A DNA stretch of 64,000 bases. It comes from Solibacillus sp. FSL H8-0523 (GTDB lineage: Bacteria > Bacillota > Bacilli > Bacillales_A > Planococcaceae). Numbering within the stretch: position 1 is the first letter of the stretch; the number at the start of each line of letters is the position of its first letter. This document shows positions 22,396 through 44,514 of this stretch, one piece after another. The DNA is taken from the NCBI RefSeq assembly GCF_038051985.1, contig NZ_CP150291.1, positions 1,116,001 to 1,180,000 of the forward strand. Reading direction: 5' to 3'. A program made the translations under genes and the position numbers. The notes under the pieces were generated by a model. The model was not told the DNA's origin. It did no database searches and was given only the letters and a program-made list of their open reading frames with translations.

Positions 22396-22499
22396 AGACA
22401 TATATTTCATGAATTTAAACGAGTAATTTATGCGAATCTAAAAATTATTTGCATAATTTTGCAACTATGATAAAGTTAGTTTTACAAATTGAATAGTTT

Positions 22500-22690
22500 T
22501 GCAGGAAAGAGATGCTTTGTAGCATAAATGGGAATTCGGTGTAAATCCGAAGCTATATCCGTAACTGTAAGCGTAGATGAAAATAAGCAAAATGCCACTG
22601 CCAAAAGCGGGAAGGTGCTTGTGAGTAAAGGGAAGCGCGAAGCCAGGAGACCAATCTTTTTCTGATCGTAACACACCTCTTCGGAATTAA
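22500..22690 (+). ncRNA. Cobalamin riboswitch
   Basis: Adenosylcobalamin-type aptamer. Conserved blocks appear in order: GGGAATTCGGTGTAAATCCG (about 22530-22549), ATGCCACTG (22592-22600), and the B12 box GCGAAGCCAGGAGACC (22637-22652). In the known family, binding of the cofactor stops expression. A separate terminator hairpin lies downstream, so transcriptional attenuation is likely. Confidence 0.95.
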
Positions 22691-39997: not shown

Positions 39998-40624
39998 ATG
40001 GAAAAAAAAATTCAAATTAAACAACCGAAATATCAAGTCATAGCAGAAGATATCGCGGGAAAGATTGTTGAGAAGAAATATGTAGTCGGTGAAAAAATTT
40101 ATGCGCGGTCGTCTCTTGCCTCACAATACGGTGTATCTTCAGAAACCGCTAGGCGAGCAATTGCCGTTCTGCAAGATTTAGATATCGTAAAGGCAACGAA
40201 AGGAAGCGGCGTTGAAATTGTTTCGTATGAAAATGCTGCGAAATTTGTGCATCGCCTAGAAGGTGTTCATTCCATCCGAGAAATTCAACAGCAATTAATG
40301 ACAAGTGTCAATACGCAAATAGACGAACTCAAGCATTTTCAGTCCACAGTGAATGAGTTAGTGAATCGTACAAGTCGCTTTCAATCTATTAACCCCTTCG
40401 TGCCATTTCAAGTAGAAATTATTAAAAGCTGTCACTATATTTCTAAAAACATTGGCGAAATTAACTTTTGGCAAAATACAGGCGCAACCATTATTGGCAT
40501 TCGAAAAAATGATGAACTGATTATCTCACCTGGGCCTTATGCAACTTTAGAAGAAGACGACACACTATACTTTGTTGGTCAAGAAGCATGTTATTCAAAT
40601 GTAAAATTATTTTTAAATATATAA
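39998..40624 (+). CDS. busR: BusR-like GntR regulator with a C-terminal RCK_C (TrkA_C) domain
   Basis: Probable c-di-AMP-responsive repressor of the adjacent glycine betaine transporter. Residues of about 10-75 form a GntR-type winged helix (YQVIAEDIAGKIVEKKYVVG, then YGVSSETARRAIAVLQDL). A coiled-coil linker follows, and residues of about 140-208 form an RCK_C domain (HYISKNIGEINFWQNTGATI, then IISPGPYATLEEDDTLYFVG). This architecture and these motifs match BusR of streptococci and lactococci. In that family c-di-AMP binding to RCK_C strengthens repression of busAB, limiting osmolyte uptake. Its own terminator and three operator copies lie downstream, before opuAA. Confidence 0.85.
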   Translation: MEKKIQIKQPKYQVIAEDIAGKIVEKKYVVGEKIYARSSLASQYGVSSETARRAIAVLQDLDIVKATKGSGVEIVSYENAAKFVHRLEGVHSIREIQQQLMTSVNTQIDELKHFQSTVNELVNRTSRFQSINPFVPFQVEIIKSCHYISKNIGEINFWQNTGATIIGIRKNDELIISPGPYATLEEDDTLYFVGQEACYSNVKLFLNI

Positions 40625-40636
40625 AGTAACAACTTG
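40624..40636 (+). promoter_or_regulatory. BusR-like operator, copy 1
   Basis: AAGTAACAACTTG, overlapping the busR stop codon. Identical to copy 2, 150 bases downstream. Confidence 0.65.
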
Positions 40637-40676
40637 TATCTAAGCCTTTTAAAAATTCAATAACTTCAAAAATATT

Positions 40677-40714
40677 AAAACCACTTAATTTCAATAGAAA
40701 TTAGGTGGTTTTTT
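40677..40714 (+). terminator. Terminator of busR
   Basis: AAACCACTTAATTTC / GAAATTAGGTGGTTT stem followed by T residues, between busR and the opuA promoter. Confidence 0.9.
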
Positions 40715-40766
40715 CTGCTTTAAACAAGTAATTCCTTAAAAACATAACCTAAAAAATGGGATAAAT

Positions 40767-40795
40767 TTGACACAAGTAACAACTTGCTTTAAAGT
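40767..40795 (+). promoter_or_regulatory. Sigma-A promoter of opuA with operator copy 2 in its spacer
   Basis: -35 TTGACA (40767-40772), 17-base spacer, -10 TAAAGT (40790-40795). The operator AAGTAACAACTTG (40774-40786), itself palindromic as CAAGT-N4-ACTTG with the preceding C, fills the spacer, so a bound repressor would exclude RNA polymerase. Confidence 0.8.
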
Positions 40796-40831
40796 TTAAG
40801 TTGCTTAAAGTAAAAACCTAATATTTTTATA

Positions 40832-40844
40832 GAGTTGTTACTTG
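40832..40844 (-). promoter_or_regulatory. BusR-like operator, copy 3 (inverted)
   Basis: GAGTTGTTACTTG is the reverse complement of CAAGTAACAACTC, one base different from copies 1 and 2. It lies downstream of the -10 box and 58 bases from copy 2. Confidence 0.7.
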
Positions 40845-40872
40845 ATGCGAGAAAAGGTATAGGAAGTGGATT

Positions 40873-42072
40873 ATGAGTAAATTAAAGATTGAAGGAGTCA
40901 CCAAAGTTTTTGGGAAAAATACTTCTCAGGCACTGAAAATGGTTGGAAATGGAAAGTCTAAAGAGGAAATTCTAAAAGAAACACAAGCGACGGTTGGCGT
41001 CTACGATGTTAGCTTTTCGGTAGAGGAAGGCGAAATCTTTGTGATTATGGGCCTTTCTGGTAGTGGTAAATCGACATTAATTCGTTTGTTGAACCGATTA
41101 ATCCAACCAACAACCGGTAATATTTTTATTGATGGTGAAAATATTACGAAAATGAACAAAAAAGGGCTGCAAAGTGTACGACGCGAAAAGATGAGCATGG
41201 TCTTTCAAAACTTCGCTCTCTTCCCACATCGGACGATTTTGAAAAATGCTGAATACGGTTTAGAAGTTCGTGGAATTTCGAAAGAGGAAAGACGATTAAA
41301 AGCAGAAAAGGCTTTACAAAACGCCGGTCTACTATCCTATAAAGACCAATATCCTAGTCAGTTATCTGGTGGCATGCAGCAGCGTGTCGGACTAGCAAGA
41401 GCGTTAGCAAATAATACTGAAATTATTTTAATGGATGAAGCTTTTTCTGCGCTTGATCCGCTTATTCGAAAAGAAATGCAAGATGAGTTGTTAGAATTAC
41501 AGGCATCTCTTCAAAAAACAATTGTATTTATTACCCACGATCTAAACGAAGCATTACGTATCGGAGACCGAATCGTCATCATGAAAGACGGTAAAATTAT
41601 GCAAATAGGTACGGGTGAAGAAATATTAACAAACCCAGCGAATGAATACGTTCGTACATTTTTAGAAGATGTTGATCGTTCAAAAGTGATTACCGCGGAA
41701 CACGCGATGATTCGTCCAATAACGATTCAAGTCGACCATGAAGGACCTAAAGTTGCGTTACAACGTATGCGTGAAGAAAAAGTGAGTGTACTGCTTACAT
41801 TAGACCGCGCAAGAAAGTACATTGGCTACATCACAGCGAATGATGCATTGCGTTTATCACAAGCTGGTGAAAAATCGATTCAATCGATTATTCGAACGGA
41901 TATGCCTACTGTAGAGCCTTCTACAGTTATCCAAGATTTATTACCAATTATATCCGATTCACCAACACCGATAGCAGTTGTAGATGAAGGGAAATTACGC
42001 GGTATTTTAATACGTGGAGTCGTATTAGAAGCGTTAGCCTCTGAAAAAAATGGAGGTGAATCACATGAATAA
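40873..42072 (+). CDS. opuAA: Glycine betaine ABC transporter, ATP-binding protein
   Basis: OpuAA-type ATPase of 399 residues for osmoprotectant import. Walker A is GLSGSGKST, signature [16 protein letters not shown], Walker [14 protein letters not shown]-loop [11 protein letters not shown]-terminal tandem CBS domains (about 275-395) are the ionic-strength sensing module known in OpuA. It is controlled by the BusR-like operators upstream. It overlaps opuAB by eight bases. Confidence 0.95.
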
Positions 42073-42928
42073 CCTTCTCGAATTCATTCCTAAAATTGAA
42101 GTAGCAAATAATGTTGAAAAATTCATGGATATCTTAACGGATTCTTTATCTGGCATTTTCGGATTTATACAAGACGAAGGACAAGATGTGATGGATGCGA
42201 TAACAAATTTTTTAATAGCGATTCCATCTGTCCTCTTTATCGTAATTGTTGCGTTATTGGCATTTTTCGCGACTGGTAAACGTTTTGGATTAGCTGTATT
42301 TTCAATAATCGGGTTGTTCTTTATTTATAATCAAGGGCTATGGGAACAGCTCATGAACACCTTCACCCTTGTATTATTTTCTAGTTTGATTGCCATTATT
42401 ATAGGTATCCCAATGGGTATTTTAATGTCAAAATCAAAAATTATGGAAGAAGTAACTAAACCAATACTTGATTTTATGCAAACAATGCCTGGTTTCGTTT
42501 ATTTAATTCCGGCTGTTGCCTTCTTTGGTATCGGCGTAGTGCCTGGGGTTTTTGCCTCTGTTATTTTTGCACTTCCACCAACGGTTCGTTTTACGAATTT
42601 AGGTATTCGACAAGTTCCTAAACATTTAATTGAAGCTGCGGACTCTTATGGTAGTACATTCAGCCAAAAACTATTCAAGGTTGAATTGCCACTAGCTAAA
42701 TCCACGATTATGGCAGGCATTAACCAAACGGTACTGCTATCGTTATCAATGGTTGTAATTGCCTCAATGATTGGCGCACCTGGATTAGGGCGTGAAGTGT
42801 TATCTGCTCTACAACGTGCACAAATCGGTAACGGCTTTGTAGCAGGATTAAGTTTAGTAATCTTTGCAATTATCGTCGATCGCTTAACGCAAAGTTTCAT
42901 TCGGAACAAAGATGAAAACAACGTATAA
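42065..42928 (+). CDS. opuAB: Glycine betaine ABC transporter, permease
   Basis: OpuAB-type permease of 287 residues with about seven spans. The EAA-like loop is in [20 protein letters not shown], followed by [20 protein letters not shown]. The start at 42065 follows GGAGGTGAA by four bases; the stop of opuAA overlaps it. The substrate-binding protein is a separate gene, unlike the fused BusAB of streptococci. Confidence 0.94.
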
Positions 42929-42983: not shown

Positions 42984-43865
42984 ATGTTTTTTAATAAATC
43001 AACAGCATTCGCATTACTAACGGCTGGAGTCGTTTTAACGGGTTGTAGTAATGACGAGAATACAAGCAAAACACTTGAAGAACAAGTAGATTACACAATT
43101 GTAGGAATTGAGCCTGGTAGTGGTACGATGGAAAAAGCGCATGCTGCTATAGAAGACTACGAAAACTTAAAAGATTGGAAGTTGGAGGAAAGTTCAGCGG
43201 CTGGAATGTTAGCTGAGCTAGATAAAGCCCTTAAAAATGAAAAACCCGTAATTATTACAGGTTGGAATCCGCATTGGATGTTTTCTAAGTATGATTTAAA
43301 GTACCTTGAGGATCCCAAAAAATCATTTGGTGAAGTAGAACAAATCAACACCATTGTGAGAAAAGGCTTTAAAGAAGATTTACCGAATGCTTATACAATT
43401 GTCGACCGCTTTTATTGGGAGCCTGAGGATATGGAAGAAGTAATGGTAGATTCGCAAACTTCTAGTTTTACCGAAGCAGCTAGTAAATGGGTTGAGAAAA
43501 ATGCGGATTTAGTAGCAGAATTCACAGCCGATGTTGAAAAAGGGAACGGTGAGAAAATCAAACTCATTTCAACACCTTGGGAAACGGAAGATGCCTCTTC
43601 ACATGTCATGCAAGCAATTTTACAACAGCATGGATTTGAAGTGGAGTTAACACCTGTAGACCCAGCAATCATGTTCCAAGCAATTGCAACGGGTGAAGGG
43701 GATGTGTCAGCTGCACCATGGCTACCAGTAACGCATCAATCATTCTATGAAAAGCATAAAGACGATATTGTTGATTTAGGAGAAAACTTAGACGGTGCTC
43801 GAATCGGTTTAGTTGTCCCAGCCTATATGGATATTGATTCGATTGAAGATTTAGCAGCAAAGTAA
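42984..43865 (+). CDS. opuAC: Glycine betaine-binding lipoprotein
   Basis: Substrate-binding protein of 293 residues. Signal peptide ending in the LTGC lipobox (lipidated Cys near residue 21), then the OpuAC fold with aromatic-cage residues likely in VIITGWNPHWMFSKYDLKYL and AAPWLPVTHQSFYEKHK. TAAGGAGG precedes the ATG. It ends the operon before a terminator. Confidence 0.94.
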   Translation: MFFNKSTAFALLTAGVVLTGCSNDENTSKTLEEQVDYTIVGIEPGSGTMEKAHAAIEDYENLKDWKLEESSAAGMLAELDKALKNEKPVIITGWNPHWMFSKYDLKYLEDPKKSFGEVEQINTIVRKGFKEDLPNAYTIVDRFYWEPEDMEEVMVDSQTSSFTEAASKWVEKNADLVAEFTADVEKGNGEKIKLISTPWETEDASSHVMQAILQQHGFEVELTPVDPAIMFQAIATGEGDVSAAPWLPVTHQSFYEKHKDDIVDLGENLDGARIGLVVPAYMDIDSIEDLAAK

Positions 43866-44043: not shown

Positions 44044-44514
44044 ATGACAACAGAGAAAACAAATGTAGAAAGCTTTGATTTAGACCATACGAAAGTAGTA
44101 GCACCATATGTACGTCTTGCAGGAACAAAAGAAGGTGCAAAAGGCGATGTTGTAACAAAATATGATATTCGTTTTAAACAACCAAACAAAGCGCATATGG
44201 AAATGCCAGCGCTGCATTCATTAGAGCATTTAATGGCCGATCGTATTCGCAATCATAGCGATGCAGTAGTAGACCTTTCACCAATGGGCTGCCAAACAGG
44301 GTTTTATGTCTCGTTTATCAATTACGATGACTATGAAGGGATTTTAGACATTTTAGAAAAAACAGCACAGGATGTTTTAGCGGCAACGTCAGTACCAGCT
44401 TGCAATGAAGTACAATGTGGCTGGGCCGCTAGTCATAGCTTAGAAGGCGCGCAAGATTTAGCAAAAGAATTTTTAGAAAAACGTACGGAGTGGCATATCG
44501 TTTTTGAAGATTAA
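44044..44514 (+). CDS. luxS: S-ribosylhomocysteine lyase (autoinducer-2 synthase)
   Basis: Cleaves S-ribosylhomocysteine to homocysteine and the AI-2 precursor. The 156-residue length is typical; the metal-binding [14 protein letters not shown] motif, [11 protein letters not shown] with the catalytic Cys, and the C-terminal [14 protein letters not shown] are present. TTGGAGGG precedes the ATG. No SAM riboswitch was recognised upstream; the gene stands alone and ends in a strong terminator. Confidence 0.97.

Follow-up and report, generated by a model that had tools for sequence, protein, structure and literature searches.

A probable BusR-opuA osmoregulatory locus with two tandem bipartite operators in Solibacillus sp. 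FSL H8-0523

In the chromosome of Solibacillus sp. FSL H8-0523 (4,144,207 bases, a single contig), a gene for a GntR-type regulator lies directly 5' of a glycine betaine uptake operon, with copies of a short repeat between the two. The question raised by this locus is whether the regulator is BusR and, if so, how the repeats between the genes would serve it. The stretch analysed, 64,000 nucleotides in all and referred to here as the window, had been given a first-pass annotation in which three equal operator copies were bridged by looping. The reading favoured here, with a probability of about 0.9, is that this is a BusR-opuA osmoregulatory locus in which BusR, switched by c-di-AMP, would repress opuA from two tandem bipartite operators; that it is an ordinary member of a known regulatory system is well supported. 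The features concerned are as follows.

39998..40624, + strand: busR, a 208-residue GntR winged helix-turn-helix and RCK_C repressor (phmmer, Pfam)
40624..40872: opuA control region
40624..40634, + strand: lone half-site AAGTAACAACT, which overlaps the stop of busR; at the partner position (N14) 11 of 11 bases are mismatched
40677..40712, + strand: terminator-like hairpin and T tail 3' of busR, between busR and opuA
40767..40795, + strand: putative opuA promoter, TTGACA-17-TAAAGT
40774..40809: operator O1; left half AAGTAACAACT at 40774-40784, perfect; N14; right half AGTTGCTTAAA at 40799-40809, 5 mismatches
40808..40843: operator O2; left half AAGTAAAAACC at 40808-40818, 1 mismatch, in the core; N14; right half AGTTGTTACTT at 40833-40843, perfect
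40873..42072, + strand: opuAA, glycine betaine ABC ATPase with CBS domain (TIGR01186 proV above cut-off; Pfam CBS)
42065..42928, + strand: opuAB, permease (PF00528); an alternative upstream start at 42050 is possible
42984..43865, + strand: opuAC, substrate-binding lipoprotein (PF04069, E 5.7e-61)

The product of 39998..40624 carries the Pfam domains GntR and TrkA_C and matches S. agalactiae BusR (7b5t) by phmmer at E 7.1e-41, query residues 5-208 against chain residues 8-211 without a gap, with a second solved homologue, 7wjg, at E 6.3e-43. The architecture of GntR winged helix, long helix and RCK_C is thus aligned over its full length, and the coiled-coil ruler is, at the level of sequence, of equal length, with 204 residues against 204 of 7b5t. 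By these comparisons the protein is a full-length BusR orthologue, as the first-pass annotation had proposed. OpuAA, encoded next to it, has a match in 7ahc_D, a solved OpuA ATPase, at E 7.2e-166, and opuAA-opuAB-opuAC is, judging from the encoded proteins, an OpuA/BusA type I betaine importer, with a single operon predicted from the gene spacing. In a genome search for OpuAC the operon's own copy is the sole strong gene, the one other match being marginal at 21.7 bits. The operon is followed by luxS at window positions 44044-44514, and the only Rfam match in the window at gathering score is a cobalamin riboswitch at 22493-22673.

The repeat was first described as a 13-base element, AAGTAACAACTTG, at the busR stop and in the promoter spacer, where it is indeed exact at 40624-40636 and 40774-40786, the sole two exact copies genome-wide. 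The promoter itself is also as described, with the limitation that promoter-type patterns are near chance in the interval (5 found, 3.9 expected), as are terminator-like patterns (1 found, 0.7 expected). An inverted third copy does exist at 40831-40843, with two mismatches in 13 bases rather than the one reported and starting 57 rather than 58 bases after the second; it is perfect over the 11-base core 40833-40843. At up to 2 mismatches the number of 13-base matches in the window is not unusual (6 against 3.03 expected, with 6 reached in 7 of 100 dinucleotide-preserving shuffles), an ordinary count that would fit a chance AT-rich repeat with no relation to BusR. The enrichment of the conserved 11-mer AAGTRACAACY is unusual: of 15 exact copies genome-wide, 3 fall within the busR-opuA interval, and the reversed pattern has 8.

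This 11-base half-site replaces the 13-base operator unit, which had missed the inner partners at 40799-40809 and 40808-40818. The supposed three operators are then the two outer halves of a tandem bipartite operator and one unpaired half-site. The shift from O1 to O2 is 34 bp; O1 covers the -10 and the spacer between -35 and -10, and O2 lies just downstream. The left core of O2 reads GTAAA, not GTAAC, and a strict GAC-N22-GTC is formed by neither O1 nor O2, each of which has one broken core with the N22 spacing kept. With 3 or fewer mismatches allowed, O2 is the single match to the bipartite motif in the 4.14-Mb genome, and the reversed-pattern control gives 0.

The half-site emerges from comparison of 62 busR loci (E <= 1e-70) taken from 151 genomes within the family. 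This set leaves out G098, where busR is at a contig end, and the distant BusR-like paralogues L071-L073, which are 27-30% identical and have no opuAA match. In all 62 loci opuAA is downstream of busR in the same direction, and the consensus of the intergenic regions is AAGTRACAACY-N14-RGTTGTYACTT, two inverted 11-base half-sites. A left/right pair separated by N14, with no more than 2 mismatches per half, is present in 62/62 regions, so the element is conserved next to orthologues. Among the 79 left/right pairs found at spacings of 0-60, N14 accounts for 64, with 0.22 pairs per set in mononucleotide shuffles. The operator is perfect in 40/62 loci and has 3 mismatches or fewer in 62/62. The half-site spacing N14 is a core-to-core spacing of N22, the same as in the published S. 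agalactiae GAC-N22-GTC, although the core across the family is AAC or GAC, mostly with GTAAC in place of GTGAC.

In 57/62 loci the gap between TTGACA and a left half-site downstream of it is 0-1 nt, and in 61/62 the same holds for TTGACN, which places the operator over the promoter. Tandem operators with a shift of 34-35 bp are found in 13/62 loci, the same 13 that show outer halves at N48 or N49. The clostridial loci L195, L204 and L210 likewise carry tandems, at 34-36 bp.

The presence of the operator follows that of busR. With 2 mismatches or fewer, the bipartite motif occurs at 113 places in 65 of the 151 genomes, with zero for the reversed-pattern control. It is present in 63/63 genomes with busR and in 2/88 without (Fisher p 8.9e-41, a value that ignores relatedness); in the latter two it has 2 mismatches and no betaine gene adjacent. 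Six of the 63 are counted by virtue of other sites, their opuA site having 3 mismatches. Against this co-occurrence, the empty control and a fixed spacing in every locus, a coincidental repeat is refuted, and its probability is negligible. G083, a genome of the same genus, has neither busR nor the motif, and likewise no close OpuAA and no OpuAC. OpuA is nevertheless not dependent on BusR in the Planococcaceae, because a close OpuAA relative (E <= 1e-80) is kept in 5/22 genomes without busR.

A point against the main reading is that neither operator in the window has two intact halves, and in S. agalactiae the replacement of one half-site abolished or heavily compromised binding (PMC8517857). 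It might be that the operator is decayed and poorly functional and that control of opuA by BusR is weakened here, as the 5 mismatches in the right half of O1 and the core mismatch in the left half of O2 could suggest beside a perfect operator in 40/62 loci. However, busR is intact, both outer halves are perfect and the operators retain their tandem spacing. A poor O1 right half is seen also in the tandem loci L018, L028, L029 and L035, although O2, imperfect in the window, is perfect in three of the four. Decay is an unlikely account, at something like one chance in five.

The lone half-site at 40624 bears on a different alternative, that of the first-pass annotation, in which operators at 40624, 40774 and 40831 would be equal and bridged by DNA-looping BusR tetramers. 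Chance is an improbable origin for the 40624 copy, because 3 of only 15 exact half-sites in 4.14 Mb are found here and an exact half-site appears in 1/2000 mononucleotide shuffles of the interval; it also belongs to the only two exact 13-mers in the genome, and L018 has a lone exact half-site as well, 316 bp before the start of its opuAA. These two are, however, the only exact lone half-sites among the 62 busR-opuA regions; L016 and L017 have a degenerate copy, AAGTAACCATT, at the position matching that in the window. Spacing had been taken to suggest looping, but an N14 partner position exists for each promoter half-site, and S. agalactiae BusR formed no loops in vitro (PMC8517857). Looping is accordingly given little credence, well below decay, and two tetramers lying side by side fit the arrangement better.

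For the main reading we infer binding, repression and cooperation at these operators along the following lines. BusR, probably as a tetramer and switched on by c-di-AMP, would occupy O1 and O2, where the coiled coil would measure the 22-bp spacing between the cores of the inverted half-sites, and this occupancy would block transcription of opuA. Under salt stress c-di-AMP (and turgor) would fall, BusR would release the DNA and the betaine importer would be made. At the window site two neighbouring tetramers, bound together, would probably be needed, because O1 and O2 each keep only one perfect half.

The Trp159, Tyr13 and Pro181 of the autoinhibition patch are present as W158, Y12 and P180 in 62/62 Planococcaceae BusRs, where the equivalents of Thr165 and Gly180 (T164, G179) and of the DNA-contact residues Arg38, Arg53, Gly70 and Gly72 are also invariant. 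In a more distant set of 119 BusRs, W158 is found in 111 and P180 in 113. Most of the c-di-AMP pocket is kept in the window BusR, in line with the conservation asked of it at the outset: Ile153, Gly154, Asn157, Ala164, Thr165, Ile166, Gly180 and Pro181 are retained, and the altered positions are Val158Phe and His160Gln. In S. agalactiae His160 contacts a phosphate of c-di-AMP; its equivalent is Gln in 53/62 Planococcaceae BusRs, the window included, and His in 9/62. The equivalents of Gly154 and Ala164 are Gly in 32/62 and Ala in 45/62, respectively. With W158, Y12, P180, T164 and G179 invariant in 62/62 and one gene with a diadenylate-cyclase (c-di-AMP cyclase) domain in the genome, control of this BusR by c-di-AMP is likely.

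On the DNA side Lys36 and Lys54 are replaced by Tyr and Arg, respectively, throughout the 62 Planococcaceae BusRs, which, like the changes at His160, Gly154 and Ala164, counts against the main reading. In S. agalactiae Lys36, Lys54 and Arg53 are among the DNA-contact residues whose mutants bind badly (PMC8517857). The equivalent of Lys54 is position 53 in the window protein, in the recognition helix, and this position varies with the type of half-site among 45 of the 119 more distant loci that have exact operators: Arg53 (window numbering) is found in 29, each with one or more GTAAC halves, and Lys53 in the other 16, all with GTGAC only. These loci lie among L092-L130 and L181-L260, and relatedness may explain part of the split, which would nonetheless make position 53 a candidate specificity residue that could be tested by a single mutation. 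Residue 35 (Tyr, His or Lys) was rejected as the determinant of GTAAC or GTGAC, as 4 loci with Tyr carry GTGAC only.

The closest known system is that of S. agalactiae, in which a GntR-RCK_C repressor whose protein aligns ungapped with that of the window likewise controls a betaine ABC importer, busAB, through two bipartite N22 operators. There one GAC-N22-GTC operator lies over the -35/-10 and the other is closer to the start codon (PMC8517857), and one footprinted site is over the promoter (PMC5919688). The two loci differ in that the S. agalactiae busR and busAB are 655 kb apart (PMC5919688) and are adjacent here, that the half-site is GTAAC here against a published core of GAC, that OpuAB and OpuAC are separate proteins here, unlike busAB, that the inner operator halves are decayed in the window and that Lys36 and Lys54 have given way to Tyr and Arg. 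In Lactococcus lactis busR is, as here, directly upstream of the transporter operon busA (PMC5919688), with the repressor bound in the promoter region (PMC10243994). Four other Lactococcus loci (L240, L243, L245, L249) read TTTGACAAAGTGAC-N22-GTCAC. The same-strand order of busR and opuA in the Planococcaceae is unlike that in L239 (Lactococcus laudensis), L250 (Leuconostoc citreum), L256 (Lactococcus raffinolactis), L112 and L198, where busR is divergent from opuA.

BusR in lactic acid bacteria is reviewed in PMC10243994, and BusR is mentioned in a paper on L. lactis OpuA (PMC2861598). No title on Planococcaceae was found in the BusR literature, a search in which subscription papers were mostly outside scope and which leaves absence from print unproven. 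The published operator rests on four experimentally determined sites (PMC8517857). The 22-bp ruler is extended here to 62/62 Planococcaceae loci and, in exact form, to 39 of the best 80 of 560 relatives, where it is the dominant spacing. These named genomes are Planococcaceae (13 of the 80, partly overlapping the 62 loci), Clostridia, Enterococcus, Vagococcus, Lactococcus and others. Pairs of the form GTRAC-Nn-GTYAC are commonest in them at n=22, where 39 loci hold 42 pairs, against 5 or fewer at each other spacing from 5 to 44. Exact GTRAC-N22-GTYAC is absent from 74 of the 119 more distant loci, to which the ruler is thus not extended.

BusR-like proteins (E <= 1e-15) occur in 33/398 genomes of the class and 63/299 of the phylum, counts whose weak end may not be BusR. 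An OpuAA-like ATPase is within the fetched stretch for 66 of the best 80 of 560 relatives. In most clostridial loci the ATPase is 31-43% identical to OpuAA and OpuAC was not found beside it, so that the partner of BusR there is probably a transporter of the OpuC type. In L114 a BusR match with two internal stops, either a broken gene or recoding, stands beside a perfect GTAAC operator.

The more interesting by-product is the wider betaine regulon suggested by the remaining operators in the relatives. Of the 113 motif places, 57 are at opuA (in 56 loci) and 54 others were classified, leaving out G098:C250 and G048:C26:349832; the former is probably the opuA side of G098, on a contig other than that of its busR, and the latter is sequence of the same kind as the L164 site. 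The 54 comprise 48 just upstream of an OpuAC-type gene, 2 at an OpuC-like ATPase operon and 4 at neither, and they are not independent, many being orthologous between species of a genus. In a set of 38, all 30 places with 0-1 mismatch are upstream of OpuAC-type genes, at 26-96 bp from a start inferred by tblastn, and TTGACA stands 0-1 nt before the operator in 25 of these and not in 5. Pfam identifies eight of ten representative neighbour proteins as OpuAC, one as an ABC ATPase with CBS and one as a permease. In the genome of the window no extra BusR target is found at up to 3 mismatches beyond the opuA site O2, and a looser 14-base motif at 2 mismatches is uninformative there, matching at 67 places per strand where the control matches at 123.

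It is about an even chance that Planococcaceae BusR governs a betaine-uptake regulon of this kind, taking in dispersed solo OpuAC genes and, more weakly, the OpuC-like operon, with the window site a composite held by tetramer cooperation. If so, a single c-di-AMP signal would tune the amounts of the permease and several alternative binding proteins in concert, and the opuA site in the window lineage would be a composite of two overlapping operators whose outer halves alone are perfect. The lactococcal regulon is given as busA and busB with in-silico additions (PMC7051946); the Planococcaceae relatives would instead add further betaine-binding protein genes, and these solo genes are testable new BusR targets. 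None of arsC, hom and thrB, the targets predicted in silico for L. lactis IO-1, is among the kinds of gene beside the sites described here.

The 2-mismatch operator of L155 and L158, from two genomes, is upstream of an OpuC-like operon of an ATPase with CBS and a permease, and does not have the TTGACA-adjacent layout. The loci L132-L163 and L261-L281 carry operators immediately 5' of solo OpuAC genes, sometimes several in one genome; L263 and L272, within this range, are opuA itself. In L160 and L161 adjacent duplicated OpuAC genes each have an operator of their own.
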